Of a stretch of 41,199 bases of DNA, positions 5,567-41,199 are shown in pieces. Source of the stretch: a virus; the IMG/VR virus record IMGVR_UViG_3300009181_005352, positions 1-41,199 of that record; one strand, written 5' to 3'. Made by a program: the position numbers and the translations under genes. The notes under the pieces are model-generated. The model worked only from the letters and a program-made list of their open reading frames with translations, did no database searches and was not told the DNA's origin. The stretch's first letter is position 1; each line of letters starts with the position of its first letter.

Positions 5567-7114
5567 CTATGCGTTTGGTGCTGAGTTTTTCAAAACATCA
5601 ACCCAGCTATTATAAGCGCCATTCACCTCTTCTAACCCTTTAGTTCCACCATTAACACTTTTTCTAGCCTGTGTAAGATTATTTGCTAATACATGTTTAA
5701 AAGTTCTTCCTCTCATATAAACTGACGCAACTTTATAAGAATTTTGAGGAACCATGGCTAAATCACCATTAGATACTAAATCAACCCCTATTAATTTTCC
5801 ATATTTCTCATAGTTCGCCTTACCAGTTAATTGTATAAGACCTCTACCAAAATAACATTGATTTTTACTATCAGTGCCCATTGTATAATAATTTTTCTTA
5901 CCCTTAGTCGATCTGTAATAGTTTGTAGCACTAGAACAAGGTCCACTGGATGGATAAGGAACACCAGCTCCAGTACAAGCATAATCAGCTTCCCATCTTT
6001 GTAAAGAATATCCAGACTCAGCATAAGCTGTTGCTAACATATAAGCACCTTCTCTTAAATCTTTTATATCTGGATCATTCTTAATAAAGAAAAGAACTTT
6101 TTTCAAAGACTCAACAAATTTAGCATTAGGTTTATGTGGTTTTTTATTAATTAAACTAACAGCCGTATCAATATTGAAAGACTTCCACTGAGGGCCACTA
6201 AATGAAGGATCATTATAATTTATCTTTGTTTCATCCACATTTAGAGTAGATCCGGTAGTATCAGCTGGTAGATCACCTTGTAACTCACCAGATATCTCAA
6301 TAGCTTGTGATAGCTCTAATAATTGTTCTGCTTCAATATTTGTTTGAGCCTCAACATATTCACCATCTAACTCATCATCTGGATTTCCACTATTATCAAA
6401 TACCCAATCAGCTGGCTCAGTTATTATTTTTAAATCTCCTGCTACGCTGTACGATCCACTAGTCAGCCCAACTATTACAAATGTGTCTTTCTTTTCAACA
6501 TTAAACTTAAAATCTCCTTTTATTTTAGAATCAACAATAACAACTGGATCTGGTATTACTTCTGGTTGTGGTTTTGGTTTCTTAATTTCCTCTACCCACT
6601 TATTCCAAACATCAAAATATCCTTCTGGGTGACTTGGAACAATAGCAGGATCAAATGTTTCTTGAACTATCTCATAAAAAGGTGGTAATCCTGATTGTGT
6701 CAATCCAGAATAATATTTAGCAAATAAACCAGTTGTGTAATCTTTGGTTGGATTCAACCAGTCACCAAGTGATTTTATATTAATATTAATATCACTAATA
6801 AATTTAGTTACAAAATCATCAGTTGTTTTAAATATATCATTTGAAGGTTTTGGCTCAAAATTATAAGATAATCCGGCTATATCATAAGCTCTATTTTTCC
6901 CAGTTGAGTTAGGAGGATCTCCGGGACCAGGTGGTATATCATATATAACTGGTTCAAATTTAATAAAATAATCTTTCCTACCACTTTTATATAGTGTTAG
7001 TTTAATATCACCTATACCTAAGTTATCAGGTTTTGGTTCATTCCAATATTTACCATCGGTAGATATTTTACCTCTTAGTCTTACTTGTTTTATAATTTCT
7101 TCTTCTTTAGCCAT
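5567..7114 (-). CDS. Tail-associated GH19-type cell-wall hydrolase
   Basis: A 515-residue tail protein that ends in a glycoside hydrolase family 19 domain (about 330-510). The signature YFGRGLIQLTGKANYEKYG lies at 421-439 and the likely catalytic Glu is E366 in ATAYAESGYS. In phages and bacteria GH19 enzymes of this kind cleave the peptidoglycan glycan strand; chitin is the other known substrate. The first 180 residues are closely related to the N-terminus of the gp27-like gene just upstream (shared KxVRLRGKIS, KPDNLGIGD, YDIPPGP and SHPEGYFD), so this is probably a docking domain that fixes the enzyme to the baseplate hub. A Pro-rich linker and a small beta domain lie between. Likely role: local wall digestion during tail penetration, rather than holin-linked lysis. 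Confidence 0.85.
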   Translation of the reverse strand: MAKEEEIIKQVRLRGKISTDGKYWNEPKPDNLGIGDIKLTLYKSGRKDYFIKFEPVIYDIPPGPGDPPNSTGKNRAYDIAGLSYNFEPKPSNDIFKTTDDFVTKFISDININIKSLGDWLNPTKDYTTGLFAKYYSGLTQSGLPPFYEIVQETFDPAIVPSHPEGYFDVWNKWVEEIKKPKPQPEVIPDPVVIVDSKIKGDFKFNVEKKDTFVIVGLTSGSYSVAGDLKIITEPADWVFDNSGNPDDELDGEYVEAQTNIEAEQLLELSQAIEISGELQGDLPADTTGSTLNVDETKINYNDPSFSGPQWKSFNIDTAVSLINKKPHKPNAKFVESLKKVLFFIKNDPDIKDLREGAYMLATAYAESGYSLQRWEADYACTGAGVPYPSSGPCSSATNYYRSTKGKKNYYTMGTDSKNQCYFGRGLIQLTGKANYEKYGKLIGVDLVSNGDLAMVPQNSYKVASVYMRGRTFKHVLANNLTQARKSVNGGTKGLEEVNGAYNSWVDVLKNSAPNA

Positions 7115-7124
7115 TTTACTTTTA

Positions 7125-9530
7125 TTATATTTGTTCTAAATTACCTATTACCTCAGTTCCGTTTTCAAGTAATTGTTTAACTGTTAATTTATATTTAACA
7201 CCTGCACTATCTTGTACAGTGAGAACTTCACCAACTACATAAACGCTATTTGGTAAAATTGGAGGAGTAGATGCTGTAGTTCCTGGAACAACTGGATTAT
7301 CATTAATTTGTTTTTCTTCTGGTTTTTTAGCAACTGGAGTTGGATCTTCCATTTCCTGTTTAGTTTTACCAAGTTCACTTCTAACAAGACTTAATTCCTG
7401 TTTAAGACTTCCTCTTCTAAAAGAATATGAAATATTAGATATTATATATTTACCAGAGTATCTATAATTCATTGAATCTTCAGTTGGCGTCGCACTAGGA
7501 TTAATAATATCAATAGTAACTCTCATGTATTTATATAAACAAAAATTAGGATTTGATAGTGTTACATCAACCCCTATCTTAGTTAAGTTGTCAAGATTTA
7601 TTCTATTTTGAGTATAAGCATAGTTATAGTTTTTATGCATATTATCGGTATCTAACTTACCTAAAAATTTTGTTATAATATTCTCTTTGAAGAATTTATC
7701 ATCAGCTTGTTTACCCTTTAGAATCAATGATGACTTACCATCAGATGTCGATGAATCTACATCAAAGACTAAAAATGATTTTGTAACTCTATCATAATAT
7801 TTAGCTACAGTCAAATAACCAACCTCAAGTGACTTTTTAGTTGAATTATTTTTAGTTGTATATTTTTCAAAAAATAATGAAGATGAATTGAAAGTTTGAT
7901 CATTTGTTAACCTAAGTGGAATAATTCTATCCTGATCTTCTGGAGTAGCTGCTTTTGAACTACCTGCAGTATCAATAACAACATCACCTGTTACATTTCT
8001 AGTTTGTTCTTTCTCAACATCAACATAATTAAAACAATAGTAATAATCTATATAACCTAACATGAATGATTTATCTGATATGTATGAGTGTTGTATAACA
8101 TCATTGATAAAATCATAAGGTTTTTTATTAGTACTTCTCCAAGTCATTGAATCATCCGCACTAGTTATATTTGAATTAAAACCAAGTCCTAATTCTTTAC
8201 TAACTTCTCTTAATACTTCAAATGAAGTTCCTTTATATGATTTATTTTTTGTTATATAAAGTTTTGGTATATCTATTGTACCTCTTATTGTATAAGTTTG
8301 ACCTGATTTTTCAGGACTTTTATCAAATCCATCTATTTTAAAAACTAAATGTATAGACTTTATATTTTCAGAGGTTGAGTTTAAGAAAAGTTCTACGGAA
8401 GTTTGGTCTTGTGGAGTTCCGTCTCCCTTCAATATATTTTGAGTATCTTTAAAATTAAATTCAAGTTTTGGTATTATACCATCATGGTATAAATTCACAC
8501 TAACTAAATCTTCTGTTTTTATTTGATATCCAGAATACCAAATAAATGGAGTATATCCTAAACCATCAGTAACCGGTTTTTGACCAGCTGCGGAAGGTTT
8601 AACTACGGTATCTTGTGAGAATTTTATAGGAGGAACAATGATAGTAGGCGGATCTATTTGACTAATTATTGGTCTTGTTCCATCCACATTTTTCTCTTTA
8701 GGAGTTTCTTTATTTTTCTCATCTTGTGCAATTAGATCCGATTTAGGTAAAACTTTAATCGATATCTCTTTATACTCTATTTTTTCGTTATCAGATGAAA
8801 CAGTTATGACATAATCACCTGGTTCTGTAAATTGTATTTCTTTGAAATCAATTTTAGCAGAGTCAACATCTGGTATTTTCTCCATTGCAATCTCAGTAAT
8901 ACCCGTTATCTCACCTGGTCCTGATTTTTTCTTTAATAATATTTTACCACTAAGAGCCGGAACACTTGTTGGTGGTACATCAGAGTTTGGAGCAGGATCT
9001 TGTTTTGGTTTTGGAGTATTATTTTCCTCTACCCATTTATTCCAGATATCAAAGTATCCTTCTGGATGACTTGGAACAACAGCAGGATCAAATGTTGGTT
9101 GAACAACTTCGTAGAAAGGTGTTGATTGGGTTAATCCAGAATAATACTTAGTAAAACTTTTAACCCATGCAGGATTACCAAATCCAGAAGATTTAATATT
9201 AACATTAAGACCTTCGATGAAATTAGTTATAAAATCATCTGTTGTTTTAAATTTATCATTAGATGGTTTTGGTTCAAATCCATAAAATACTCCAAATTTA
9301 TCATTAATTCTATTTACACCTGTTGAGTTAGGAGGATCTTTAGGACCAGGTGGTATATCATATATAACAGGTTCAAATGAAACAAGATAGTCTTTCCTAC
9401 CTTTCTTACTTAAAGTTAATACAGCATCTCCAATACCTAGGTTATCGGGTTTAGGCTCTTTCCAGAATTTACCATCACTAGATATTTTACCTCTTAATCG
9501 AACACTTTTAACTTTTACATAATCAGACAT
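7125..9530 (-). CDS. Baseplate hub protein, gp27/gpD-like, with shared docking domain
   Basis: An 801-residue hub protein. Residues 1-185 are the same docking domain as in the GH19 protein. Residues 190-300 contain a beta-sandwich-like segment ending in Lys/Glu-rich linker. Residues 330-710 resemble the gp27 / late-control protein D hub fold: a long beta-rich domain with SFEVLREVSKELGLGFNSNI, then WRSTNKKPYDFINDVIQHSYISD, then YIDYYYCFNYVDVE, and a closing strand with YSGKYIISNISYSF. In T4, gp27 forms the trimeric ring that joins the tail tube to the gp5 spike; the gp5-like gene lies two genes downstream. The C-terminus is a Pro/Thr-rich linker and a small beta domain. The gap to the GH19 gene is ten bases, so they are surely co-transcribed. 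The hub assignment is from pattern, with moderate confidence. Confidence 0.7.
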   Translation of the reverse strand: MSDYVKVKSVRLRGKISSDGKFWKEPKPDNLGIGDAVLTLSKKGRKDYLVSFEPVIYDIPPGPKDPPNSTGVNRINDKFGVFYGFEPKPSNDKFKTTDDFITNFIEGLNVNIKSSGFGNPAWVKSFTKYYSGLTQSTPFYEVVQPTFDPAVVPSHPEGYFDIWNKWVEENNTPKPKQDPAPNSDVPPTSVPALSGKILLKKKSGPGEITGITEIAMEKIPDVDSAKIDFKEIQFTEPGDYVITVSSDNEKIEYKEISIKVLPKSDLIAQDEKNKETPKEKNVDGTRPIISQIDPPTIIVPPIKFSQDTVVKPSAAGQKPVTDGLGYTPFIWYSGYQIKTEDLVSVNLYHDGIIPKLEFNFKDTQNILKGDGTPQDQTSVELFLNSTSENIKSIHLVFKIDGFDKSPEKSGQTYTIRGTIDIPKLYITKNKSYKGTSFEVLREVSKELGLGFNSNITSADDSMTWRSTNKKPYDFINDVIQHSYISDKSFMLGYIDYYYCFNYVDVEKEQTRNVTGDVVIDTAGSSKAATPEDQDRIIPLRLTNDQTFNSSSLFFEKYTTKNNSTKKSLEVGYLTVAKYYDRVTKSFLVFDVDSSTSDGKSSLILKGKQADDKFFKENIITKFLGKLDTDNMHKNYNYAYTQNRINLDNLTKIGVDVTLSNPNFCLYKYMRVTIDIINPSATPTEDSMNYRYSGKYIISNISYSFRRGSLKQELSLVRSELGKTKQEMEDPTPVAKKPEEKQINDNPVVPGTTASTPPILPNSVYVVGEVLTVQDSAGVKYKLTVKQLLENGTEVIGNLEQI

Positions 9531-17185: not shown

Positions 17186-18580
17186 ATGAAGAAGTATTCA
17201 GATAAATTTCTTAATCAGTCAAATAAACTTAAATTTGCTAAAATTGGGTTTGAATTTGAGTTTTATATGAAAGACCTGTCTTATTATAAGACATTAGAAC
17301 TATTAAACATTGAACTAGCTCCTGTAAAAGTTTGGGGGTTTAGACAATATCACTCAGACTTCAAACCAGATGAGAAAAATTTCAAAATAGAACCCGATTT
17401 ATCAGGAGGTTCCAACATGGTTGAGTTAGTGACTGGACCACTTGATTATTATGATGCTAAATACTATTTAGTTAAAATAATAAAATTTATACAAACTTAC
17501 GGATATACAAATGAGAAATCATCTGTACATTTTAACTTATCATTTAATAATGAAGATAAAAACTTAAATGATTTAAATATATTAAAGTTAATATTAAATA
17601 CAGATGAGGATGAGATTTATAGAATTTTCCCATCTAGAAAAAGTAATGTATATGCTAAATCTATAAAGAAAATTATTCCATATAAAGAATATGACTTCTT
17701 TAATATACCTATTAGTGTTGTTAAAAACAATCTAAGATTACCAAGTGATAAATACTATGGTATTAATTTCTTAAATATCAATAATGATAAAGAAAGTCAA
17801 AGACTTGAATTTAGATATGTCGGTGGAAAGGATTACGAAAGTAATATAGGCAATCTAATTTATTTTATGGATAGATTTATAATAACGGTATTTGATTCTA
17901 TTGATACTGACTTTAATTCGGAAGATGTTAACAAGTTAGAAGAATACTTAGAAAAAAATATCTCACTATTTAAGAACTTTTCCAAATATGATAACTTTAT
18001 AGTTGATTTTCCTACTATTCAATTACAAATTGACCAAGTTGGTAACTATGATTTAATATCAGCATACTATCCGAATATTTATACTAAATTATATAACTTA
18101 ATAGACGCAACAAGTGGTCTTAAAGAATGTATTGTAAATTATGTAACATCTACACAAACAATGGAAGTTGTTGATGCTGAAATTAAAAACACATCAACTA
18201 TTAAAGGATATGACTTAATCAATTGTAGATGTGAGGGTATCTATGAGAATTGCTTCTTCATAGGATGTGAAGTAGATAATGCTCAAATGACTAAATCCAA
18301 ATTACAACAATCTTCAGTTGTAAACTCAAAGGTTTTAAATTGTAAAGTCGAATCTACAAACTTAACAAATTGTTACTTTATGGATGGTTATTTAAATGGA
18401 GATATGATGGGTGGTGTATTTAGATCTGGTAGATTAGGACCTTATGCAACATTAGATTCAGAGGTTAAAGTTGTTACTGATAATGAAAATTTCTTTGATA
18501 CTAAATTTGATACCGAGACAAAAGGAGATTCAAAAGGAAATATAAAAGGATATGGTAAACAACCATTCGGTAAGAAATAA
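17186..18580 (+). CDS. Putative amidoligase with C-terminal repeat domain
   Basis: A 464-residue protein. Residues 15-260 fit the putative amidoligase family (glutamine-synthetase-like fold): the metal/ATP-binding strand IGFEFEFYM (20-28), then EPDLSGGSNMVELVTGPL, and SSVHFNLSF further on. Members are thought to join an amino group to a carboxylate using ATP, for example on peptides or cell-wall-like substrates; the target here is unknown. Residues about 345-425 form short repeats (YDLINCRCEGIYENCFFIGC, then VVNSKVLNCKVESTNLTNC) like a pentapeptide-type right-handed beta helix. The start MKKYSDKFLNQ is a variant of the capsid-targeting-like peptide found on other genes here. The next gene begins in its stop codon (TAATG), so the three genes form one operon. 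Confidence 0.7.
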   Translation: MKKYSDKFLNQSNKLKFAKIGFEFEFYMKDLSYYKTLELLNIELAPVKVWGFRQYHSDFKPDEKNFKIEPDLSGGSNMVELVTGPLDYYDAKYYLVKIIKFIQTYGYTNEKSSVHFNLSFNNEDKNLNDLNILKLILNTDEDEIYRIFPSRKSNVYAKSIKKIIPYKEYDFFNIPISVVKNNLRLPSDKYYGINFLNINNDKESQRLEFRYVGGKDYESNIGNLIYFMDRFIITVFDSIDTDFNSEDVNKLEEYLEKNISLFKNFSKYDNFIVDFPTIQLQIDQVGNYDLISAYYPNIYTKLYNLIDATSGLKECIVNYVTSTQTMEVVDAEIKNTSTIKGYDLINCRCEGIYENCFFIGCEVDNAQMTKSKLQQSSVVNSKVLNCKVESTNLTNCYFMDGYLNGDMMGGVFRSGRLGPYATLDSEVKVVTDNENFFDTKFDTETKGDSKGNIKGYGKQPFGKK

Positions 18581-19026
18581 TGAAGTATCTAAAGAAGTTT
18601 GAAAGTAATGAAGAAGAATTAGAATTTGGAGTAACACCAGATGATATTAGATATTTATTTACCGACATATCAGATAATGGTTGGAGAGTGGATGTTAGAT
18701 TTCTAAGGAAGTTATTTGATTTCAAACAAACAGATATGACAGGAGTAAAATATGCGGGTATTCCTATTTTGAAATTTGGTTTAATTCCTTACATACAAGT
18801 TTCAATTAGTAAACCAACTCCACATACTGATAGATTCTCAAGAAGTCCTTGGAATGAGTCTCAGGAGTTACAATCATTTATAGAATCAAATGAATTTAAA
18901 GAGATAATCGAAGTCGCTTCTTTGAGATTAGACGAATCTAAACTTTATATACAAAAACAATCGTATGTAAATAATGCGTTTAATATATTAATATATAGAA
19001 AAACAGATCAAAATTACATTAAATAA
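18580..19026 (+). CDS. Hypothetical protein with capsid-targeting-like N-terminus
   Basis: An unknown protein of 148 residues. Its start, MKYLKKFESNE, has the basic/aromatic pattern shared with several unrelated proteins in this window. After that come an acidic linker and an alpha/beta domain (TPDDIRYLFTDISDNGWRVDVRF; YIQVSISK; LYIQKQ; FNILIYRK). Small proteins with a similar layout are frequent in large phages, but I cannot name a family. It overlaps the amidoligase stop by one base and ends one base before the DHH gene, so the three are translated together. Confidence 0.75.
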   Translation: MKYLKKFESNEEELEFGVTPDDIRYLFTDISDNGWRVDVRFLRKLFDFKQTDMTGVKYAGIPILKFGLIPYIQVSISKPTPHTDRFSRSPWNESQELQSFIESNEFKEIIEVASLRLDESKLYIQKQSYVNNAFNILIYRKTDQNYIK

Positions 19027-19027
19027 T

Positions 19028-20878
19028 ATGATAAAAAAATATCAAAACTTCCTGAACGAAGAAGTAGGGCTTAAAAACATATCTAAGATAGCGAAACTTT
19101 ATAAAACTGCTGAAATTTATTTCCACAAAGACTTAGATGGTGTTACATCAGCTGTCGCTATGAAAGAGTTCTTAAAGAATTATTATCAAATAGAAACTGT
19201 TGATTGTCATATCATTCAATATGGTGGATTAGAATACGCTATTAAACACCACAAAGAAGGAAATCTTTGTGTATTAGTTGATTTTGCTCATGGTAAACCA
19301 ATGTTCCATATTGCAACTGACCACCACGATAAACAATCGGGTGCGGAAAACACACAATCTACTTATTTCAAAAGTACTCGTTCAAATGTTGAAACTATTT
19401 CAGGTGAGATTTCATATGCTGACATTTTTACACATGAAGATATTGAATTAATTAAAACAGTTGACTCTGCTGACTTTTTAGCAAATGATATCAAACCAGA
19501 AGATGTTCAAAATGCTATATTCTCTCCTGATAAAAGTGTTTCGGCTTCTAAGAATAGATTTATGATGGGTTTTGTAGTTAATAGATTATTATTAGCTTAT
19601 AAAAATAAAAGAATTACAACTAAATCATTAGATGGTAAAAGAAATCATATCAATAGAAATATACTTGAGTGTTTAACTTTAGACTCAACAGGTAGTTTAT
19701 ATTCAATGTTTAATAACCTCAAAAATTATATTAATAATGCTAAGACTACTGATAAATTAGGAAGACTAGCAACTCCAGAAGAAATCACAAGTAACTTAAA
19801 TGATTATATTGGTAGAATGAAGAATTATAGTTTTATCGAAGATCCTAATACTGGAGATGTTTCTGAATACGATCCAACTAACTGGAGACATAAAAAAATG
19901 TTAGATACTGGAGCTCAGATTGGTAAAGGTGTTCATTTTGATGAAGATTATAAAATTGTAACTCAATATGGTGGTGGTTCAATGATTAAACCAGGTTCCT
20001 ATGATAGGTATGTTGTTTTCAAAAACAATCCTGAAGCAGACTTTAATTGCATTGCTTGGCCAATGGGTCTACTACAAGTTTCTTGTAATCCATTCAAAGA
20101 AAAGGCTTTGAAAGAAATTCACTTAGGTGAAATTGCTAAAGAAGTTTTAGCTAAACACGAATCAACTCTTAAAAGATTCTTCGTTTCTTTAGAGTCGATT
20201 AAAAAAGAATTTGAAACATCTCAAGATTGGAAAGCAATGTCTAAAGCAGAAGGTGATGATTATGAAGGAGTAGGATTTAAATTTAGTGATTTAGAAGCTT
20301 TCTATAAAGATTGTTTATTTGAGAAGAAAGATAATAATGTTGTTAATGTTGATATTAATGATCCAAAGCTAAAAAGTAGTATGAATACTTTATTTGAAGA
20401 CCTTACGTCAGATCAAAAAGTCTATCTGAGTAATATTAAAATTCCAGCTTGGGAACTTATCATTAGAAACTCAGGTGGACATCCGTCAATTACTAACATT
20501 ACAGGTTTGAATTTCTTAAAATATAATAAAGCGGCTCTTAAAATAGCATATAAAACAGAAAAGTATGTTGATGTTCTTAAAACATTGGCTAAAGATTTTG
20601 TAAATGTTCTTAAAACTAAAATTGATATTGCTAAAGAAGGTGGTCAAGTTGAGTATGATACTAAAGGAGTTGAGTTACTTGGTCAAGATACAAATGAAAA
20701 TTTTGATTATCAAATTGTTGATAAAGTAAGTGGTCAACCTGTTTCAGTTACAAAGGATCAATTCTTAAAAGCTGGAGCATCTAAAGGAATGAAAACTGAT
20801 AGAAAAAGTTTGATGAGTATTGATATGGTGAATAAGAAAGTGGTTGCTAAGTTTGAAAATTTTAATATTAAAAAATAA
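19028..20878 (+). CDS. DHH-family phosphoesterase
   Basis: A 616-residue protein of the DHH superfamily (RecJ, NrnA, cyclic-dinucleotide phosphodiesterases). The manganese-site motifs are HKDLDG (33-38), D85 in LVDFAHG, and DHH (98-100); a GGH motif at 483-485 marks the DHHA1-type substrate-binding domain. Such enzymes hydrolyse single-stranded DNA, short RNA or cyclic dinucleotides; the sequence alone does not decide which. A degrader of cyclic-dinucleotide signals would be useful to a phage, but that is speculation. The N-terminus MIKKYQNFLNE matches the capsid-targeting-like peptide. A long helical middle part (170-330) and a C-terminal extension (560-616) are extra compared with compact NrnA proteins (about 320 residues). 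Last gene of its operon. Confidence 0.85.
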   Translation: MIKKYQNFLNEEVGLKNISKIAKLYKTAEIYFHKDLDGVTSAVAMKEFLKNYYQIETVDCHIIQYGGLEYAIKHHKEGNLCVLVDFAHGKPMFHIATDHHDKQSGAENTQSTYFKSTRSNVETISGEISYADIFTHEDIELIKTVDSADFLANDIKPEDVQNAIFSPDKSVSASKNRFMMGFVVNRLLLAYKNKRITTKSLDGKRNHINRNILECLTLDSTGSLYSMFNNLKNYINNAKTTDKLGRLATPEEITSNLNDYIGRMKNYSFIEDPNTGDVSEYDPTNWRHKKMLDTGAQIGKGVHFDEDYKIVTQYGGGSMIKPGSYDRYVVFKNNPEADFNCIAWPMGLLQVSCNPFKEKALKEIHLGEIAKEVLAKHESTLKRFFVSLESIKKEFETSQDWKAMSKAEGDDYEGVGFKFSDLEAFYKDCLFEKKDNNVVNVDINDPKLKSSMNTLFEDLTSDQKVYLSNIKIPAWELIIRNSGGHPSITNITGLNFLKYNKAALKIAYKTEKYVDVLKTLAKDFVNVLKTKIDIAKEGGQVEYDTKGVELLGQDTNENFDYQIVDKVSGQPVSVTKDQFLKAGASKGMKTDRKSLMSIDMVNKKVVAKFENFNIKK

Positions 20879-21939: not shown

Positions 21940-22527
21940 ATGAATCATATAAAACTATTTGAAAATTTTACCAATCATCCTTTAATCAATCTTGAGAATC
22001 AATTAATGAAATACTCAATTCCTATTCAATATTGGGGAACTGGACAAGCAAAAACAATCGAACATCTATTAGATGAGATAGATAATGAAGAATGTATAAT
22101 TAAAGATGAAGGTGGGTATTTAGTTCGATATATCGAGTTTGTTGGAATTAGAATATTATATAAAGACAAAGATAATAACACTTGGTTGCTAAAAGAAGAT
22201 AGACAAGAGTTCAAAGATGGTAGAGTTAGAAGAAGAGATATGCAATCATCGGTTTCAGAGAAAATGAAATCTGGAGAAAATCCATTAGTTTCAGCAGTAA
22301 GAGGAATTGAGGAAGAACTAAGTGTTAAAATTGAATCATCTCAATTAATAAAGTTAAGACCAGTATATTATAATGGTGGTTCACAATCATATCCAGGATT
22401 AAAAACAAAATATATCGGTCATCAATTCACTTGTTATCTAACACCTGAGCAATTTGTGGAAAATGGTTATGTTGAAATACAAAAGGATAAGAGTACGTTC
22501 TTTAAATGGGTAAAAAGAGATAATTAA
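21940..22527 (+). CDS. Nudix-like hydrolase with capsid-targeting-like N-terminus
   Basis: A 195-residue protein with a Nudix-type fold. The region around SGENPLVSAVRGIEEELSV (111-129) fits the Nudix box: R121 and the E125-E126 pair that bind metal are kept, while the usual Glu after Arg and the final Gly are replaced (RGIEEELS instead of REUxEExG). Nudix enzymes hydrolyse nucleoside diphosphates linked to another group, such as NAD, ADP-ribose, capped RNA or oxidised dNTPs; the substrate here is unknown. The N-terminus MNHIKLFENF is a member of the capsid-targeting-like set. The altered box means activity is not assured. A weak A/T hairpin follows the gene. Confidence 0.7.
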   Translation: MNHIKLFENFTNHPLINLENQLMKYSIPIQYWGTGQAKTIEHLLDEIDNEECIIKDEGGYLVRYIEFVGIRILYKDKDNNTWLLKEDRQEFKDGRVRRRDMQSSVSEKMKSGENPLVSAVRGIEEELSVKIESSQLIKLRPVYYNGGSQSYPGLKTKYIGHQFTCYLTPEQFVENGYVEIQKDKSTFFKWVKRDN

Positions 22528-27398: not shown

Positions 27399-29378
27399 AT
27401 GGCTACAGCTAGACCTTTTGCTTATAATCCAACATTAACACCAATATCAGGAACTGAACAAGTTGGTGATTTAGCTATTGGTTTTCCAACTTCAGGATTT
27501 GAAGCTAGTGGATTACAATGGTGGAATGGAGCTGATGAAGAATTAGGATATGTAATTTGTGTACCAGTTCCTGGAAATAATCAACCAACTCCTATAGTAG
27601 GTGTTACAGCCGCTGTTGGATTTTACAGAACTGGATTTGATGATAATGAATTTATTAATTTTACAAATTCACTTTTAGGATCAAGTTATACTAGCGCTAC
27701 TGAATCATCAGAGGCACTAACAAACAATGGATATTGGAATTCATATACAACATTTTCTCCAGTATTATCTTTAGATGCTGCTGATTATACAAGCGGTGAT
27801 TGGATAGATTCTGTTGGTGGAAAATCATTTTTATTATATAATTCACCTACTTGGTCTTCAAGTAATGGAGGTCATTTTAACTTTGATACTTCGTTATCAC
27901 AATTTGTAGAATGTAATACAAGTTTACCAAGTTTGGGTATCTGGTCAGTTGCTGTTTGGCATTATTATGATGGAACAAATACTGGAGCATGTCCTTGTAT
28001 TTTAACTGAAGTTTATCCTGGTTCTGCGGGCCAAATAAATTATTCTTTAGGTGATAACAATGGAGGTTTTAGTATAGGATTCTATAATGATGTATGGCAA
28101 GTTACTGATGGTTATTCTTTAACTCCTGGTAATTGGTATTATATTGTCGGTACCTATGATGGTACAACTGTTAAATTATATGTTAATAACACATTAGTAG
28201 ATAGCACATCCTACACAGGAACACCAATCTCTTCACAAGGAGGTATTCGATTAATGAGAAGATGGGATAATGCTGATTGTTGGGGTGGTAAATTAGCCAC
28301 CGTTGATATCTATGACAAAGCTTTAAGTAACTTAGAAATTGAATCTATTTGGAATTTAACTAAACCAAGATTTGGTTTTGGCACAGCAGTACCTACGGTT
28401 ACTTCTGATAGTTATGGAAGTCTTAGTGGTAGTAGTGCGACCGTCACTGGAACAATCACAAGCGATGGTGGCTCAGTAATACTTGAAAGAGGTATTGTAT
28501 GGAGTACAAGTCCAAATCCTACGATATCAAACAATAAAGTGGCTGGTACAGGAACTGCAGTAGAGACATTTACACAAACTTATGTGATACCAAATCCATA
28601 CGCATACATATATGTAAGAACATATGCAACCAATGTAATAGGTACAGGATATGGAACTGATCTTTACTTTATTTTGCCTTGTTTTGTTAAGGGAACTAAG
28701 ATAACAATGTTTGATAGAACTAAGAAAAACATAGAAGATATATCTTATGAAGATAACCTTTTAGTATGGAACTTCGATGATGGTCAATTTGATTCCGCTA
28801 AACCATTATGGATAATGGAAATGGTGAAGACGCCATCTGTCAATATACTATTCAGTGATGGATCTAAATTAGGTATATCAGGATATCTTCAACACGATGG
28901 TGGACATAGAATATTTAACTTAGATAAAGGAGAGTTTACTTATGCAATACCTAATGAACATACTCCTATAGGAACAAGAACGTTCAACGACAAAGGTGAG
29001 ATAGTTACGATAGTAGGTAAAGAAGAAGGTGAGTTTGCTGAGATATACAATGTTGTAACTAATAGACACTTAAACATATTCGCAGAAGGTATGCTTACTT
29101 CTAGAAGACTAAACAACATATACCCTATATCAGATATGAAGTTTGTCAAAGAAGAGAGAACTATAACTCCTATTGAAGAGTTTAAAGGTATAACAGAAGA
29201 ATACTACAATGGTCTTAGATTAGGTGAACAACCACTTGTTAAAGTATCTGAAGGATTCCTTACTAAATCTCCAGGTGAATTGGCTTATACACTTCCTACT
29301 ATTGAAGAACTGGTAGAATGGACTATAGGATTCATTCAGAAGAAATACGAGCCTTTATATGAAGATACTATTTCTTGA
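27399..29378 (+). CDS. LamG-Fn3-Hint adhesin / tail fibre protein
   Basis: A 659-residue multi-domain protein. Residues 1-118 are Gly/Ser/Thr-rich beta structure. Residues 120-320 are a LamG/concanavalin-like lectin domain (SLDAADY, WYYIVGTYDGTTVKLYVN, LATVDIYDKALSNLEI). Residues 330-425 are a Bacteroidota-type Fn3-like repeat (GTITSDGGSVILERGIVWS, YVRTYATNVIGTGYGT). Residues 428-575 are a Hint (hedgehog/intein) domain: C428 starts CFVKGTKI, the likely block-B His is H499 or H503, and HLNIFAEGML corresponds to the closing block. The usual terminal His-Asn is not seen, so full protein splicing is unlikely; N-terminal self-cleavage or ester transfer is possible. About 85 more residues follow. 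It probably binds host glycans. It overlaps the HAD gene by 20 bases. Confidence 0.75.
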   Translation: MATARPFAYNPTLTPISGTEQVGDLAIGFPTSGFEASGLQWWNGADEELGYVICVPVPGNNQPTPIVGVTAAVGFYRTGFDDNEFINFTNSLLGSSYTSATESSEALTNNGYWNSYTTFSPVLSLDAADYTSGDWIDSVGGKSFLLYNSPTWSSSNGGHFNFDTSLSQFVECNTSLPSLGIWSVAVWHYYDGTNTGACPCILTEVYPGSAGQINYSLGDNNGGFSIGFYNDVWQVTDGYSLTPGNWYYIVGTYDGTTVKLYVNNTLVDSTSYTGTPISSQGGIRLMRRWDNADCWGGKLATVDIYDKALSNLEIESIWNLTKPRFGFGTAVPTVTSDSYGSLSGSSATVTGTITSDGGSVILERGIVWSTSPNPTISNNKVAGTGTAVETFTQTYVIPNPYAYIYVRTYATNVIGTGYGTDLYFILPCFVKGTKITMFDRTKKNIEDISYEDNLLVWNFDDGQFDSAKPLWIMEMVKTPSVNILFSDGSKLGISGYLQHDGGHRIFNLDKGEFTYAIPNEHTPIGTRTFNDKGEIVTIVGKEEGEFAEIYNVVTNRHLNIFAEGMLTSRRLNNIYPISDMKFVKEERTITPIEEFKGITEEYYNGLRLGEQPLVKVSEGFLTKSPGELAYTLPTIEELVEWTIGFIQKKYEPLYEDTIS

Positions 29379-29902: not shown

Positions 29903-30502
29903 ATGATTTTATATATCGAGGGTGTTGTAGGTTGTGGTAAATCAACCTTATCTGAAAAAATTGGAAAAGCATTGGATATACCAGTATTCTACGAGCTTCA
30001 AAACCAAACTACAATGAATCTTCTTGAAGAGTTCTATAAAGATAAAAAGAGATGGTCTTTTGCTTTACAAATTCATTTTCTAAATGAAAGATTTAGAATG
30101 GTTAAAGAGATTCATAAAAATGGAATTGGTATATTAGATCGTTCTATTTTCGGAGATAATATTTTTGCAGAAATGTTAAACGAAGATGGTTATATGACTG
30201 ATGATGAATATGATACTTATAAATCACTATTAAATAATATGTCTCAACATATTAATGGACCAAATGTTTTACTTTATATTGATTGTGATTTAGAAACCGC
30301 TTTGAAAAGAATTCAAATAAGAGGTAGAGAAATGGAACAATCAGTTGATGAGAGTTATTGGAAAAGATTAAATGAAAAATATACAAAATGGTATTCAGAA
30401 TATAACTTATCTGATAAATTTTCAATTGATGCTAACTCATACCATCCAGACAACGATTCTGATATATCTAAGATAATTTCACTGATGAGTTCGTTTGTTT
30501 GA
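29903..30502 (+). CDS. Deoxynucleoside kinase
   Basis: A 199-residue kinase of the deoxynucleoside kinase family (dGK/dAK type). The P-loop is EGVVGCGKST (6-15), the DRS motif is D79-R80-S81 in ILDRSIFGDNIFAE, and the lid contains RIQIRGREMEQ, with the two or three Arg needed to bind phosphate. It phosphorylates deoxynucleosides to monophosphates and so helps feed the phage dNTP pool. Length is usual for the family (about 200-210). It fits with the deoxyribonucleotidase, purN and purA genes further along. The small convergent membrane protein gene overlaps its end by 24 bases. Confidence 0.85.
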   Translation: MILYIEGVVGCGKSTLSEKIGKALDIPVFYELQNQTTMNLLEEFYKDKKRWSFALQIHFLNERFRMVKEIHKNGIGILDRSIFGDNIFAEMLNEDGYMTDDEYDTYKSLLNNMSQHINGPNVLLYIDCDLETALKRIQIRGREMEQSVDESYWKRLNEKYTKWYSEYNLSDKFSIDANSYHPDNDSDISKIISLMSSFV

Positions 30503-30736
30503 TTTAATTCTATTAAAAGAAGATAAAATTATTTCTTTAATTTCTTTAATTGGATTATTACCCGAAAATAAGAAATATAACCCAAAGCAGAATCCCGCAA
30601 GGCAATACAAAACTGAATTGGCTCCTAAGTAAGAACCTGTTAAATTCATTAACATTATTTGTATCGCGTCGAACCCGAACGGATTGAAGAACATCCCCAT
30701 CATTAGAAACAATGTTGCTAGTTTTTGTTTTTTCAT
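30479..30736 (-). CDS. Small membrane protein
   Basis: An 85-residue protein with two hydrophobic segments (about 5-30 and 35-60). The sequence has a conserved-looking core: GMFFNPFGFDAIQ, then LTGSYLGAN, then YCLAGFCFGLYFLFSGNNP, followed by a basic cytoplasmic tail. I have the impression of similar small proteins in other phages but no named family. It is convergent with, and overlaps, the deoxynucleoside kinase gene by 24 bases. A competing minus-strand frame in the same place lacks such features and is a shadow. Confidence 0.6.
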   Translation of the reverse strand: MKKQKLATLFLMMGMFFNPFGFDAIQIMLMNLTGSYLGANSVLYCLAGFCFGLYFLFSGNNPIKEIKEIILSSFNRIKSNKRTHQ

Positions 30737-30864: not shown

Positions 30865-31515
30865 ATGAAACATCTTAAACAATTCAATGAATCTTCCTCT
30901 GAAGATATTAAACAAGACATCTTAGATAATTTTGCTTATATATCGGACAAGTTTGGAGAACCTGCTATAGGTTCACATAGTTATGGAAAAGGAACAAAAT
31001 GGAATTTATCTTGGGATATTAGATTAGACCTTTCTGTTTTACAAGAAGCTACTAAACTTATTCAAAAGTTAAAAGATATTGTAGAAGAAATTGATGATGT
31101 CCTTGCAGCTTCTGATAGATTAGAAAACTATAATATTAATATGAGTTTAACTAATAGTCTTAGAATTGAATTGGTTCCTAAAGATACTGGTGATAACACC
31201 TTTAAATTTATTAAAGGATATGAAAGTAGACAACTTTATGTTAGAATAAGTGAAGTTGAAAGATTTTTTAATTCTAGAGGTGTTAGAGTAGTTAAGTGGG
31301 ATAATGAATCTAGTTATGATGAAGGTAACCAAACTAATGATTTAGAAATAGTTTTAAATAAAAGAGATAATCAAATTATGGCTGAATTTCATGATTTGGT
31401 TATGGCTGAATTGAATCTAATTGATGATAGAGAATATGTAGTAAGAACACAAGGTGATAGTGTTGTTATATATCCAACTGAAGAAAAATCTTATGTAGAG
31501 ATTACTACTACCTAA
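30865..31515 (+). CDS. Hypothetical protein with capsid-targeting-like N-terminus
   Basis: A 216-residue unknown protein. It starts MKHLKQFNESSSED, the same type of N-terminal peptide as the zinc protease (MKHLKHF) at the other end of the window, with a Glu-Ser pair where T4-type prohead protease could cut. After the peptide comes a helical domain (about 60-90: LQEATKLIQKLKDIVEEIDDVLAASDR) and then beta structure. No catalytic motif is visible. It is a single-gene transcript by position: an element lies just before it and a convergent small gene overlaps its end by eight bases. Confidence 0.75.
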   Translation: MKHLKQFNESSSEDIKQDILDNFAYISDKFGEPAIGSHSYGKGTKWNLSWDIRLDLSVLQEATKLIQKLKDIVEEIDDVLAASDRLENYNINMSLTNSLRIELVPKDTGDNTFKFIKGYESRQLYVRISEVERFFNSRGVRVVKWDNESSYDEGNQTNDLEIVLNKRDNQIMAEFHDLVMAELNLIDDREYVVRTQGDSVVIYPTEEKSYVEITTT

Positions 31516-32619: not shown

Positions 32620-33012
32620 ATGAAAAAACTAAAAAACTTTGAGGCTTTTAACGAGGGACTGGGAAAAGTCGGTAATTACCTTAATGATTTAATTAAGAAG
32701 GGTGGAAAAATGGCATCTGATACTTGGGAAGCAACCAAAAGAGAAAGTCAAGAAACTAAATTAGCTGTTGGTATTTTATCAAAAATGCTAAAAGGAGAAG
32801 AAGTTTCTGAAAAAGAAAAAATTTTTTTGAAAGAACAATCAAAAGATATTGCGAGAATTTTACCCTTGGTTGCTATATCTGGAATACCTATTCCAATCCC
32901 TATAACCCCTTTATTAATAATGCTTGGAAAGAAATATGGATTTGACTTTCTACCTAAAGATCATCGTGGATTGTTAAAAGATGATGAAAAAACTCCTCCA
33001 GTAGAAGAATAA
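32620..33012 (+). CDS. LETM1-like protein with capsid-targeting-like N-terminus
   Basis: A 130-residue protein. The N-terminus MKKLKNFEAFNE followed by Gly is the best match in the window to the T4 capsid-targeting peptide MKTYQEFIAE. Residues about 62-117 match the core of LETM1-like proteins: EKEKIFLKEQSKDIARILPLVA, a hydrophobic segment rich in Pro and Ile, then LLIMLGKKYGFDFLPKDHR. LETM1-type domains act in inner membranes of mitochondria in cation exchange and ribosome contact; in bacteria and phages the role is unknown. The middle (30-60) is a charged helix. If packaged, it could insert in the host inner membrane at infection; that is speculation. Confidence 0.7.
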   Translation: MKKLKNFEAFNEGLGKVGNYLNDLIKKGGKMASDTWEATKRESQETKLAVGILSKMLKGEEVSEKEKIFLKEQSKDIARILPLVAISGIPIPIPITPLLIMLGKKYGFDFLPKDHRGLLKDDEKTPPVEE

Positions 33013-33054: not shown

Positions 33055-35208
33055 ATGTCATTAAAGTCTAGAATTTCATTAGTTATATCTGTTATAATAA
33101 TGAGTATTTTCTTTTTAACAAAAACCTTAGTTTTTACAGAATTAACACCATCAACTCCTACAACTAGAGGAATTGAATATTTTTGCTTTTTACTTTTTGT
33201 ACCTTTCTTTTATGTTGTTATAAGAGAACAGATTAATAAAAATAGATTAGAGGCAAAACTATCTAAGTATATTAAGAAATTAAATAATGTACTTGTTAAT
33301 CAATCTCATAATGTTTTATTTTACGAAGGTAAAGTAGAAGAAGGAGCAAAAGAACTAACAAAAGAAGTTATTAATACAATGGGAGTTGACAGATGTTCAA
33401 TCTGGTTATATAACTCTGATAAATCATCTATAATATGTCAACAACTTTATATTAAATCAGAAGATAATTGGTATCAAAATATTGAGTTATTTAGAAAAGA
33501 TTTTACTCCATACTTTGATCACTTATTAGAAGATCCTATAATAATAGCAGTTAATGCTGAAGAACACCCAGCTACAAAATGCTTTGCGGATTCCTACTTG
33601 AAACCACTTGGGATAAAATCAATGTTAGATGTTCCAATAATACATAGAGGTCAAGTTATTGGTGTTATTTGTATCGAATCATTTAACACACATGATTGGA
33701 ATAAATCTGAAGTTGACTTTGCTCAGATGTTATCTTCATTATACACATTCGCTTACTCTGTAAAAGAAAGTAATATATTAGGAGATGAGTTGGTAGAATT
33801 TGAGAAGTTTGTTGAAACATCTGTTATTATTTCAACTGCTGATTCTAAAGGAAAAATAACCTATGTTAATCAAAAATTCACTGATGTTTCAGGATATTCT
33901 TTAGAAGAAGTTATCGGCCAAGATCATAATATTGTAAACTCCGGACACCACCCTAAAGAATTTTGGACAAATATGTATAAAACCGTTATTGTGGATAAAG
34001 GTATTTGGAATGCTGTTTGTACTAATCGTGCAAAAGATGGGAGTTTATATTATGTTGACACTTTTATTAAAGCAAAGTTTGATAGTAATAACAAACTTGT
34101 TGGATTTTCATCTATCAGACAAGATGTAACAGACTTAAAAAGAAAGGAAATGGAAATATCTAATAGAATGAATGCTATTAATAGATCAAATGCTGTTATT
34201 GAATTTGATTTAGATGGTAATATAAAATTTGCAAATGATTCTTTTTTGAATACTTTGGGATATACACAAGATGAAATTGTTGGACAACATCATAGTTTAT
34301 TTGTAGAAGATGGTGTAAAAAATACGGAGGAATATAAAGAGTTTTGGAAATCTTTAAGAGAAGGTAAATTCTTTAGAGGTGAGATTATAAGAAGGAAAAA
34401 AGATGGAACACTAATTTATCTTCAAGCAACATATAATCCTATTTTGGGAAATGATGGTAACACTTATCGAATAATGAAAATTGCTACTGATGTTACTGAA
34501 AGTTATAATCAACAGATGGAGATTGAAAAGAAAAATACTTATCTTGAACACGCTGCCAAAATACTTAGACATGACATGCATAGTGGTATCAACACATATA
34601 TACCTCGTGGATTAAGTTCTCTTGAAAGAAGACTATCAGAGGAACAAATAAAAGAACTTAAATTAGAAGCTCCTCTTAAAATGATTAAAGAAGGTCTTCG
34701 TCACACTCAAAAAGTTTATAAAGGAGTTTATGAATTTACAAATCTTGTAAAGAAAGATGTGGTACTTAACAGAACAGAATGCAATCTAAAAGATATTCTT
34801 GAAGATTATTTATCAGCAACAGCATATAAACCACAAGTACTAATTGAAGATTTAGGAACACTTGATGTTAATGAAGCTCTTTTTTGTACATCAATAGATA
34901 ATTTAATAAGAAATGGATTAAAATATAATGATAGTGCAAATAAATACGTCAAGATATATTTAGAATCAGAGAGAAAAGAGTTTGGTCTAAGAAAGACTTT
35001 TATATGTATAGAAGATAATGGTAGGGGAATGACACAGGAAGATTTTGAATACCTATCAAAACCATACACTAGAAAAGAAGGCCAACAAGAGACAGGCACT
35101 GGACTAGGATTAAATATATGCACAGCTATCCTAAAAGAACATGGGTTCTCGATAACTTCTGAAAAAATGATAGAAGGTGGTACAAAAATAAAAATAAAAA
35201 TAAAATAA
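33055..35208 (+). CDS. Hybrid-sensor histidine kinase, GAF-PAS-PAS-HATPase
   Basis: A 717-residue membrane histidine kinase. Two membrane segments (about 7-28 and 39-57) enclose a very short outer loop, so sensing is likely inside the cell. Next come a GAF domain (about 90-240), two PAS domains (about 250-360 and 372-485), a dimerisation helix with the probable phosphorylated His H506 in ILRHDMHSG, and an ATPase domain with N box DNLIRN (615-620), G1 EDNGRGM (653-659) and G2 GTGLGLNI (681-688). There is no attached receiver domain; the receiver is the next gene, two bases downstream. All kinase blocks are intact. PAS1 has the IGQDHNIVNSGHHPKEFW pattern common in bacterial sensors, so the gene was surely taken from a host. 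Phage-borne complete sensor kinases are rare. Confidence 0.9.
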   Translation: MSLKSRISLVISVIIMSIFFLTKTLVFTELTPSTPTTRGIEYFCFLLFVPFFYVVIREQINKNRLEAKLSKYIKKLNNVLVNQSHNVLFYEGKVEEGAKELTKEVINTMGVDRCSIWLYNSDKSSIICQQLYIKSEDNWYQNIELFRKDFTPYFDHLLEDPIIIAVNAEEHPATKCFADSYLKPLGIKSMLDVPIIHRGQVIGVICIESFNTHDWNKSEVDFAQMLSSLYTFAYSVKESNILGDELVEFEKFVETSVIISTADSKGKITYVNQKFTDVSGYSLEEVIGQDHNIVNSGHHPKEFWTNMYKTVIVDKGIWNAVCTNRAKDGSLYYVDTFIKAKFDSNNKLVGFSSIRQDVTDLKRKEMEISNRMNAINRSNAVIEFDLDGNIKFANDSFLNTLGYTQDEIVGQHHSLFVEDGVKNTEEYKEFWKSLREGKFFRGEIIRRKKDGTLIYLQATYNPILGNDGNTYRIMKIATDVTESYNQQMEIEKKNTYLEHAAKILRHDMHSGINTYIPRGLSSLERRLSEEQIKELKLEAPLKMIKEGLRHTQKVYKGVYEFTNLVKKDVVLNRTECNLKDILEDYLSATAYKPQVLIEDLGTLDVNEALFCTSIDNLIRNGLKYNDSANKYVKIYLESERKEFGLRKTFICIEDNGRGMTQEDFEYLSKPYTRKEGQQETGTGLGLNICTAILKEHGFSITSEKMIEGGTKIKIKIK

Positions 35209-35210
35209 TT

Positions 35211-35642
35211 ATGATTGATTCAATTTTACTAGTAGACGATGAGAATTTATTTCATTTAGTATTCGAAGACGCATGTAGTCTTTTGGATATTTCACTTAGC
35301 CTTGAAAGCATAGACAGTTCCGATGAAGCTGCTAAACTTTTTGAAGGTTGGCAAAAAGATTCTAACGGAAAACCAGAATGTGTTTTCGTGGATTTAAATA
35401 TAATTGGTTCTTCATATGATGGAATAGAGCTGATTCGTAAAATCAATTTCGAATATGGAAATAATGTTATAATCGGTATAATTTCATCTTCAAATGAAGC
35501 TGAAGAACAAGCTAAAGCTGTTAAAGCTGGAGCTCAGTTTTGGATTATCAAATCAGATGAAATCGAACCTAGATTGGAAGAGTTTAAAAAAGATTTCGCG
35601 GGGTATAAAAACAGAACAAATCCTTTTAAAGTTTATAAATAA
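35211..35642 (+). CDS. Single-domain response regulator
   Basis: A 143-residue receiver-only response regulator. The acidic pair is D9-D10, the phosphorylated Asp is D61 in VFVDLNI, the switch Ser is S92 or S93 in GIISSSN, and the conserved Lys is K114 in WIIKSD. A loop insertion around 48-56 is typical of this subgroup. There is no DNA-binding output domain, so it must act through protein contacts, by phosphotransfer, or on the coiled-coil membrane protein encoded next. It starts two bases after the kinase stop and overlaps the following start by one base (TAATG), so the three proteins are produced together. Confidence 0.9.
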   Translation: MIDSILLVDDENLFHLVFEDACSLLDISLSLESIDSSDEAAKLFEGWQKDSNGKPECVFVDLNIIGSSYDGIELIRKINFEYGNNVIIGIISSSNEAEEQAKAVKAGAQFWIIKSDEIEPRLEEFKKDFAGYKNRTNPFKVYK

Positions 35643-36322
35643 TGATTAAGTTAGATAAAAATACCAGAAATCAATTGATTGAACTTTATAAGACTAAAAA
35701 AATTGGTCTTGAAGGAAATATTTTAAAATTAATTGATCCTGATGGTGATGAAGAATTCACATCCTATATCAAAGAGTCAATTGATAGAGATAAAGATAGT
35801 CGTAGAAAAAGATTAGATATCACAAAACAAGTTCAAAGTCAAAATAATGACTTAGTTAAATGGAAAAATGAAAATGAAAGAGTTAATAAAGAGTTAACTA
35901 TTGCACTAGAAGAAGCTAAAGAGTCAAATGAAGGAATGTTAGTAGCCAAACAAGAAGCTGAAGATTCTTTAGAAGAAGCTCAAAATGCTAGAGTTGAAGC
36001 TGAGAAGGCAAGAATTGAAGCTGAAAATGCAAGAGTTGAAGCTGAAAACGCGAAAATGTCAGCTGAAAATGACTTAGACTTAATACAAAAGAAAAGTCAG
36101 TTTGAATTAATTGGAACAATTGTCAAAGTAGCTCTTTGGGTTATATTAGGAGTTGGTTTTGTAACAACAGGAATGTATCTAATCGCTTTATCAACGGGAT
36201 TAGATACAACTGTTATTGGATCAACTTGGAGTAATATTATAGGTATATTATTAACAAACGCATTTAGTATCGTTGGTACAATTATGGGTGTTAAATATGC
36301 TTCAGAGAAATCAGATAAGTAA
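35642..36322 (+). CDS. Coiled-coil membrane protein linked to the two-component system
   Basis: A 226-residue protein without a known family. Residues 1-60 are a charged domain (LDKNTRNQLIELYKTKKIG, LIDPDGDEEF). Residues about 65-150 form a long coiled coil; part of it consists of four near-identical seven-residue units (NARVEAE, KARIEAE, NARVEAE, NAKMSAE). Two membrane segments follow (about 158-182 and 199-219), with a short basic end. Its position in the same operon as the kinase and receiver suggests that it is the partner or output of the receiver. It could tether a complex to the inner membrane. It is convergent with purN, overlapping its stop by 12 bases. Confidence 0.75.
   Translation: MIKLDKNTRNQLIELYKTKKIGLEGNILKLIDPDGDEEFTSYIKESIDRDKDSRRKRLDITKQVQSQNNDLVKWKNENERVNKELTIALEEAKESNEGMLVAKQEAEDSLEEAQNARVEAEKARIEAENARVEAENAKMSAENDLDLIQKKSQFELIGTIVKVALWVILGVGFVTTGMYLIALSTGLDTTVIGSTWSNIIGILLTNAFSIVGTIMGVKYASEKSDK
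35988..36071 (+). repeat. Heptad repeats coding for coiled coil
   Basis: About four 21-base units coding for xARxEAE-type heptads within the coiled-coil membrane protein. The units differ at a few bases only, which points to expansion by duplication. Confidence 0.5.
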
Positions 36323-36853
36323 TTTTTCGATACACTTAGGAAAATAATCTCTCTCTAGTAGAGATATTTTTTTTGCCAAAATTTCAGGTGTATCACAAAG
36401 AAGAACTTCACATTTATGTTGTTCAATTATTTGACCTTCATCATAATTCTCAGAAACATAATGTATGGTTATACCAGATTCAATTTCTTTGTTATCTATT
36501 ACTTTTTTATGAACATTCATTCCAAACATTCCTTTACCTCCATATTTTGGTAGTAATGAAGGGTGTATGTTTATTATTTTATTAGTATAATAATTTATAA
36601 CCTCAATTGGTATTAATTTAAGATATCCGGCTAATACTATAAAATCTATTTGATTTTCTTTAAGTATATTGATAAGTGAGTCATTCTTACCTAGAATTAG
36701 GTAATTAATATTTAAGTTTAATGACTTTTTAATAACACCAGCATCAGAATTATTAGTAATTATTAAAAATTGATAATCACTGTTATGATGAAAGTAATTT
36801 ATTATATTTTCAGCATTTGTACCTTCACCAGATGCTAGTATTGCAATTTTCAT
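36311..36853 (-). CDS. purN: Phosphoribosylglycinamide formyltransferase
   Basis: A 180-residue PurN, the enzyme that transfers a formyl group from 10-formyl-tetrahydrofolate to GAR in purine synthesis. The start MKIAILASGEGTNAENI holds the phosphate-binding loop; NIHPSLLPKYGGKGMFGMNVH holds the catalytic Asn and His, and ENYDEGQII holds the catalytic Asp. The phrase YGGKGMFGMNVH is typical for Bacteroidota PurN. Length is right (about 185-200). It is the last gene of the minus-strand operon, and overlaps the deoxyribonucleotidase stop by four bases. Along with purA it should raise purine supply during infection, as purN does in some cyanophages. Confidence 0.9.
   Translation of the reverse strand: MKIAILASGEGTNAENIINYFHHNSDYQFLIITNNSDAGVIKKSLNLNINYLILGKNDSLINILKENQIDFIVLAGYLKLIPIEVINYYTNKIINIHPSLLPKYGGKGMFGMNVHKKVIDNKEIESGITIHYVSENYDEGQIIEQHKCEVLLCDTPEILAKKISLLERDYFPKCIEKLLI

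Positions 36854-37715: not shown

Positions 37716-37716
<1 letters not shown>
37498..37716 (-). CDS. Small hypothetical protein
   Basis: A 72-residue unknown protein with mixed helices and strands (MITLELLTEFTHEDLRYKSDIKVVSYEIIRDWIQLQF). The start codon shares one base with the purA stop, and its stop overlaps the next start by four bases, so it is translated in series with its neighbours. No motif is evident. Confidence 0.65.
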
Positions 37717-39047
<1,331 letters not shown>

Positions 39048-40867: not shown

Positions 40868-41199
40868 ATGAATAAGATTAGCAAATATAATGATTTTCTT
40901 TTAGAAAAAGAATTTAATTCTATAATAGATGATATTTTTAGAATTGTAGAAGATGTAGAAGGAAAGTGGATTAACCCAAATACAATAGAATGGGACTACT
41001 CTAATGAACCTAAAGAGACAGAAGAAAATGATAAAGATGAATTAACAGATGCTATAATTGATTTTGGTGAAAGAGCTTTAAACAAACTTCGAGACTTCTT
41101 AAAAAAGTTACCTAAAGAAAAGATTAAAGAGTATTATGTTAAAATGATTAATAAATTTAAATCATTACCAGAAACTCTAAGAAGAAAACTTATAGGTGG
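40868..41199 (+). CDS. Hypothetical protein with capsid-targeting-like N-terminus, partial
   Basis: A gene that runs out of the window; 110 residues can be read. It begins MNKISKYNDFLLEKEF, with the basic/aromatic/Glu pattern of the capsid-targeting-like peptides. It is followed by an acidic segment and Lys/Glu-rich helices (ALNKLRDFLKKLPKEKIKEYYVKMINKF). No function can be assigned from this part. It is divergent from the purA operon with only a 22-base gap. Confidence 0.75.
   Translation, partial: MNKISKYNDFLLEKEFNSIIDDIFRIVEDVEGKWINPNTIEWDYSNEPKETEENDKDELTDAIIDFGERALNKLRDFLKKLPKEKIKEYYVKMINKFKSLPETLRRKLIG

Follow-up and report, generated by a model that had tools for sequence, protein, structure and literature searches.

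In the usual view, holin accumulation sets the time of phage lysis like a fixed clock, T4-type lysis inhibition being the classic exception in which a signal is sensed. Phage sensing of the environment has been tied to lysis timing in T4 lysis inhibition, through the holin T and the antiholin RI, and in the TeaA/ArrA system of ICP1 (PMC11413866, PMC7182436); there, a periplasmic antiholin sensor binds the holin, with neither a kinase nor a phosphorelay. The curli (T8SS) clusters of Pelagiphages carry histidine kinases, in some cases as tandem pairs, with conserved neighbors (PMC9599517), and the receiver-like cREC domain of jumbo phages is reported never to be found with histidine kinases and to be tied to NAD/ADP-ribose enzymes (PMC7824862). 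Here, we analyzed the IMG/VR virus record IMGVR_UViG_3300009181_005352, a 41-kb contig fragment whose 41,199 bases are hereafter called the window. It encodes in succession a sensor histidine kinase, a receiver-only response regulator and a coiled-coil protein with two transmembrane (TM) segments, the effector candidate, which together could form a phosphorelay controlling lysis.

With bacterial two-component systems, made of a HisKA-type kinase and a CheY/Spo0F-like receiver, this trio shares the H, N, G1 and G2 boxes, the acidic pocket, the phospho-acceptor and the conserved serine and lysine. It differs from them in being phage-borne, in a DHp domain that falls below the Pfam HisKA threshold, in the phage-specific coiled-coil/two-TM gene that always comes next, and in that one regulator can have two kinases. 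Unlike the Pelagiphage kinases, for which no response regulator is named and whose partners are curli genes (PMC9599517), the kinase of the trio is accompanied by a regulator, a two-TM protein and lysis genes. The regulator resembles cREC as a receiver-fold protein of large phages but, unlike cREC, is always with or near a kinase. The PHROG scan gave no sequence match between window proteins and T4 RI/T or ICP1 TeaA/ArrA, and neither PHROG nor Pfam matched any of them to T4 RI, RIII or holin T; kinase and regulator gave weak to moderate matches to phrog_857 (E = 5e-16) and phrog_731 (E = 5e-7), both families of unknown function.

The first gene (33055–35208, + strand, as are all features of the trio) encodes a hybrid-free kinase of 717 amino acids (aa), delineated from its open reading frame (ORF), Pfam/NCBIfam domains, conserved boxes and hydropathy. 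Two N-terminal TM segments (residues 9–27 and 38–56 by hydropathy) precede a GAF domain (residues 95–229, positions 33337–33741; PF01590, E = 1.2e-19), a first PAS domain (residues about 249–367, 33799–34155; TIGR00229 and PF13426) and a second one (residues about 380–482, 34192–34500; PF13426, E = 6.6e-24). These are followed by the DHp H-box YLEHAAKILRHDMHSGINTYIPRG (34540–34611), conserved in phage kinases, with the candidate phospho-acceptor H506 (34570–34572), and by a HATPase_c domain holding the N, G1 and G2 boxes (residues 614–716, 34894–35202; PF02518, E = 1.9e-14). Conservation across 142 phage kinases is 97% or higher at H506, N616/N620, D654-N655-G656-x-G658 and G683-L-G685, and the PDB relatives of the catalytic part belong to the Thermotoga HK853 class. 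The DHp is divergent (RHDMHSGINTY), since Pfam finds no HisKA in the window kinase, with no match up to E = 1; none of its matches to NCBIfam kinase models comes near the respective cut-off. Position and the conservation of H506 indicate that this region is probably the DHp. Thus, of what characterizes a two-component system, the kinase boxes and the receiver residues and fold are present, and the HisKA/DHp model is unmatched.

The regulator gene (35211–35642) encodes 143 aa with a PF00072 match of 37 bits, and D9, D10, D61 (35391–35393), S92 and K114 are invariant across 93 unique homologs. Its AlphaFold model (predicted local distance difference test, pLDDT, 88) has the canonical receiver fold with an extra C-terminal strand and retrieved CheY/Rcp1-like receivers from the PDB at probability 1.00. 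The effector candidate (35642–36322; 226 aa) was characterized from its ORF, homologs, hydropathy and AlphaFold model, in which an alpha/beta mini-domain that we call the N-cap (residues 1–36, ...LEGNILK..., 35642–35749) is followed by a single helix (37–185), a long coiled coil continuing into TM1, and by the TM2 helix (190–223); the predicted template modeling (pTM) score is only 0.35, as expected for a rod shape. Hydropathy places the TM segments at about 156–174 and 199–217, within a C-terminal two-TM hairpin (residues 145–226, 36074–36319) that is further defined by its conservation, 24 of its 82 columns being invariant among 18 diverse sequences, and by the fusion described below. The protein is rich in lysine before TM1 and after TM2, so that its charged ends are probably cytoplasmic, and TM2 abounds in small and polar residues; by the positive-inside rule, we infer that the hairpin would have the topology of a class II holin (two TM, N-in/C-in). 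A PDB sequence search with the effector returned generic coiled coils only, and a search of viral structures found one true homolog, an uncharacterized protein of an uncultured phage (51% identity). Its match to phrog_1544, of unknown function, is weak to moderate (E = 0.0036 for the window effector, 1.3e-5 for that of locus L136).

Kinase and regulator genes are separated by 2 bases, and regulator and effector genes overlap by 1 base, making the trio a translationally coupled operon. The original prediction, made from the letters of the window, had described precisely this linkage, together with an intact kinase bearing H506, the N, G1 and G2 blocks, a GAF and two PAS domains, a receiver with all its key residues and a coiled-coil partner with two membrane segments, and the domain searches, residue conservation and models bear it out on each of these points. 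It had also stated that such systems are rarely found whole in phages; the trio proves to be no rarity of one phage but a widespread module of uncultured phages. Searches with the regulator and the effector gave 298 and 453 relatives, respectively, of which the best 80 each were retained, so that at least 298 viral stretches encode the regulator and over 450 the effector; 113 complete non-redundant trios were assembled. The regulator gene lies at most 150 bp upstream of the hairpin gene in 234 of 250 loci, drawn from partly redundant contigs. Among the other 16, five have it 0.3–1.6 kb upstream, three are cut by a contig end, six are fusions and two lack it; these last two are on one contig (L132/L229), without a regulator match in its 74.5 kb. 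The third gene is thus conserved beside the pair in nearly all relatives.

Tandem kinases precede a single regulator in 23 of the 113 trios. In several loci a gene that we read as a GIY-YIG-like endonuclease stands between kinase and regulator, as in L030 (5273–5995), where it explains the exceptional spacing; similar gaps occur in other tandem-kinase loci. Median pairwise identity among the 113 trios is 80% for the regulator, 70% for the hairpin, 65% for the kinase core, 56% for the whole effector and 32% for the sensor, and the median ratio of nonsynonymous to synonymous substitution rates (dN/dS) of close pairs is 0.17 for the sensor, 0.054 for the regulator, 0.049 for the hairpin and 0.080 for the kinase core. 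By this measure, the last three are under strong purifying selection, and low dN/dS together with the conserved gene order argues that the trio is not due to chance. The sensors comprise TM+GAF+PAS+PAS, TM+PAS, a signal peptide with a periplasmic region (an envelope-facing sensor, in one kinase class), TPR, soluble PAS, TM only, and a HAMP-like type that is our own reading, with no Pfam hit. Sensors being diverse and the core conserved, the input is exchanged and the output held constant. The PAS/GAF and periplasmic domains suggest that the kinases could sense the state of the host. In seven loci, a 203-aa ORF (L159:6692–7303, −) that has a hydrophobic segment at its N-terminus and weakly matches GAF lies near the trio and is possibly a further sensor.

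That the module belongs to phages is apparent from its genomic context. The window record encodes a T4-like baseplate hub protein and a UvsW-like helicase, and 13 of 22 long trio-bearing contigs have a T4-type gp23 capsid gene above the family cut-off. A profile scan for the hairpin matched at least 502 viral stretches vs a single contig in 84,980 prokaryote species; by our reading, its translations include PhoH-like and terminase-like proteins, and it is itself a phage contig. In one cellular phylum other than Bacteroidota (245 genomes), the only relatives of the regulator were on this phage contig and in one 32% match, and plasmids gave no match to the effector. Among 50,697 sequenced phage records, tblastn found no match to the window regulator or effector, and the window kinase gave only partial PAS or kinase-domain matches. 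The host may be a member of Bacteroidota, probably Flavobacteriia, to judge from similarity to the Flavobacterium phage immuto and from the style of the signal peptides.

Six contigs (L010–L015) encode a fusion protein of 371 aa in which two PAS domains are attached directly to the hairpin. The PAS region of this fusion is 37% identical to residues 240–510 of the window kinase, and its hairpin is 63% identical to the window effector over residues 138–226. The fusion proteins have no N-cap, and their contigs, the longest of 110 kb, contain no regulator match; conversely, the N-cap occurs only where a regulator gene does, apart from one fragment. N-cap and regulator thus co-occur, and PAS can suffice as the input to the hairpin. 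The hairpin would accordingly be the output module, and the N-cap would be the candidate docking site where the regulator acts. The PAS-PAS-hairpin protein would then be a one-component form of the same switch. In L011 its gene overlaps a GH19 gene, with a two-TM gene next, and in L013 it follows genes for a holin-4-like protein, an M15 lysin, a GH19 lysin and a spanin-like protein, the holin-like and spanin-like labels being our own readings.

A link with lysis extends to the complete trios. In 141 non-redundant loci, the commonest neighbor family is a peptidoglycan-binding/GH19 endolysin (70 loci; phrog_181 endolysin, E = 1e-66), and further neighbors are a small two-TM protein (41), an M15 endolysin/peptidase (15) and a Phage_holin_4_1 protein (9). 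The isolate Flavobacterium phage immuto encodes a homolog of the small two-TM protein directly upstream of its annotated endolysin and holin genes. A GH19 or M15 gene is present in 37 of 50 long contigs, and in 31 of these 37 the nearest one is at most 6 kb from the effector (4.75 expected). After removal of contigs with duplicate effectors, 27 of 32 remain within this distance against 4.22 expected (P about 8e-21 under uniform placement), a value that assumes independent contigs although the phages are related; the side, distance and lysin type vary. Metallophosphatase genes, taken as controls, lie within 6 kb in 10 of 53 cases (5.5 expected), and in 0 of 33 when those farther than 10 kb from the trio are considered; PF03590, chosen as a further control, had no match. 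Of the 50 contigs, only one matched the PF05105 holin model, at a distance of 2 kb from the trio. The guess of the original prediction that the system may act in lysis timing is thus supported by gene order, neighboring endolysins, their close linkage and the L013 cassette.

A motif shared upstream of these genes points in the same direction. Among genes with an upstream gap, TATTTAT precedes 38 of 73 kinase genes (52%), 19 of 35 GH19 endolysin genes (54%) and 17 of 28 small two-TM genes (61%) vs 155 of 676 other genes (23%). In tight arrangements it is found upstream of 0 of 104 regulator and 1 of 121 effector genes, and its occurrence at the kinase and not at the two genes that follow fits one promoter per operon. 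The fuller form, aTATTTATaA, lies 10–30 bases ahead of the start codons in the three enriched gene groups and may represent a class of promoters in these phages. TATTTAT is absent upstream of the kinase of the window itself. Within the window, the T4 late promoter TATAAATA is not enriched, and only one of ten gp23 genes has TATTTAT, at −48, so that we do not call the shared motif late. The Bacteroidota promoter TAnnTTTG occurs at chance level in the window.

We thus propose that a signal would cause the membrane kinase, equipped with an exchangeable sensor, to autophosphorylate on H506, from which the phosphate would pass to D61 of the regulator. The regulator would dock on the N-cap or the coiled coil of the effector, and docking would alter the assembly of the two-TM hairpin. 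The latter would be a holin-like or antiholin-like element with a presumed pore-forming or pore-blocking activity that would set the time of endolysin release, lysis being triggered or held back. That a phage-encoded phosphorelay with a hairpin effector controls lysis and sets its timing is, in our judgment, evenly balanced between right and wrong. More tentatively, large uncultured T4-type phages might possess interchangeable kinases, sometimes two, converging on one regulator that gates a two-TM lysis effector, with a one-component form in existence.

Several observations weigh against a lysis switch. Neither Pfam nor PHROG places the window effector or that of L136 in a holin family, holins are typically smaller than this protein, and alignment of the whole hairpin with the 67-aa two-TM protein of immuto reached a probability of only 14%, so that homology is not claimed. 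The GH19 and M15 models find no endolysin in 13 of the 50 long contigs and none next to the window trio, the nearest GH19 domain of the window being 26 kb away in a tail-like protein (5567–7114). The lysis region may collect accessory genes, and the carrier phages are known as uncultured contigs, from their genes alone. Finally, other holin-like genes share some of the cassettes, so that the effector may not be the holin itself; given this and the lack of a holin-family match, it could equally well be an antiholin or lysis regulator.

Other functions were considered. In a general response to stress or host state, the regulator would target host or phage proteins such as RNA polymerase or metabolic enzymes, with the effector as a mere membrane tether and the lysis neighborhood as a common late gene cluster. 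Receiver-only regulators often act on diverse partners, the window trio lies amid nucleotide-metabolism genes, and the higher identity of the regulator (80% vs 56% for the effector) makes further partners possible. We nevertheless consider this explanation unlikely, as N-cap and regulator co-occur almost without exception, fusions keep the hairpin and not the coil, and a tether would not need the invariant hairpin columns. A take-over of host signaling, also suggested in the original prediction, found nothing in its support. Superinfection exclusion or immunity, in which the hairpin would alter the membrane to block injection by a second phage or report superinfection, like T4 Imm/Sp, would place the trio near lysis genes since both act late at the envelope. 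A phage-specific membrane protein in T4-type phages and envelope-facing sensors would suit such a role, but the tight endolysin linkage and the fusion inside lysis cassettes would be unexplained, and we regard it as distinctly improbable. A known anti-phage defense system was rejected, PADLOC models having no match to the three window proteins, the L136 effector or the fusion of L010. Although most kinases and regulators come from bacteria, and the kinase and receiver folds are bacterial, recently captured host genes without a phage role, or mis-assigned host DNA, are hardly credible; for the entire module they are refuted by the phage genes of the window record, the gp23 genes of trio contigs, the almost solely viral hairpin and strong purifying selection.

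Around the window trio are a metallophosphatase gene, a 130-aa gene of unknown role and the PurN/PurA genes. The adenylosuccinate synthetase gene of the window (37716–39047, −; phrog_1211, named for the 2-aminoadenine type) adjoins a phosphoribosylglycinamide formyltransferase (36311–36853, −); a role in Z-DNA is not evident because the ordinary-PurA motif GDEGKGK is kept. An 85-aa ORF with two hydrophobic segments (30479–30736, −), a possible holin, lies 2.3 kb upstream of the kinase. Two adjacent tail-like proteins (5567–7114 and 7125–9530, both −) have about 170 N-terminal residues in common, and one of them ends in a GH19 lysozyme domain. A 659-aa protein (27399–29378, +) with a lectin-like N-terminal part and a Hint/intein-like C-terminal domain (CFVKGTKITMFD...) had no match in the PHROG scan. 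At least seven unrelated window proteins, encoded at 369–1061 (−), 18580–19026, 19028–20878, 21940–22527, 30865–31515, 32620–33012 and 40868–41197, open with a similar N-terminal leader (MKHLKQFNE, MKKLKNFEAFNE, MNHIKLFENF, MKYLKKFESNEE, MIKKYQNFLNEE and others). We take this leader to resemble the capsid-targeting leader of T4 internal proteins, by analogy with which its bearers may be packaged in the virion.

In the open-access full texts searched, phage, histidine kinase, holin and lysis timing were not brought together in any paper, nor did wording such as "phage-encoded histidine kinase" occur, an absence that is no proof of novelty. A phosphorelay-controlled lysis clock would be of a kind undescribed in the open-access literature searched. 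If our proposal is true, some phages would read signals of the host or the environment through a dedicated phosphorelay before lysing. The three proteins of the trio constitute a concrete system that can be tested, and a first functional hypothesis is now available for the hairpin family.

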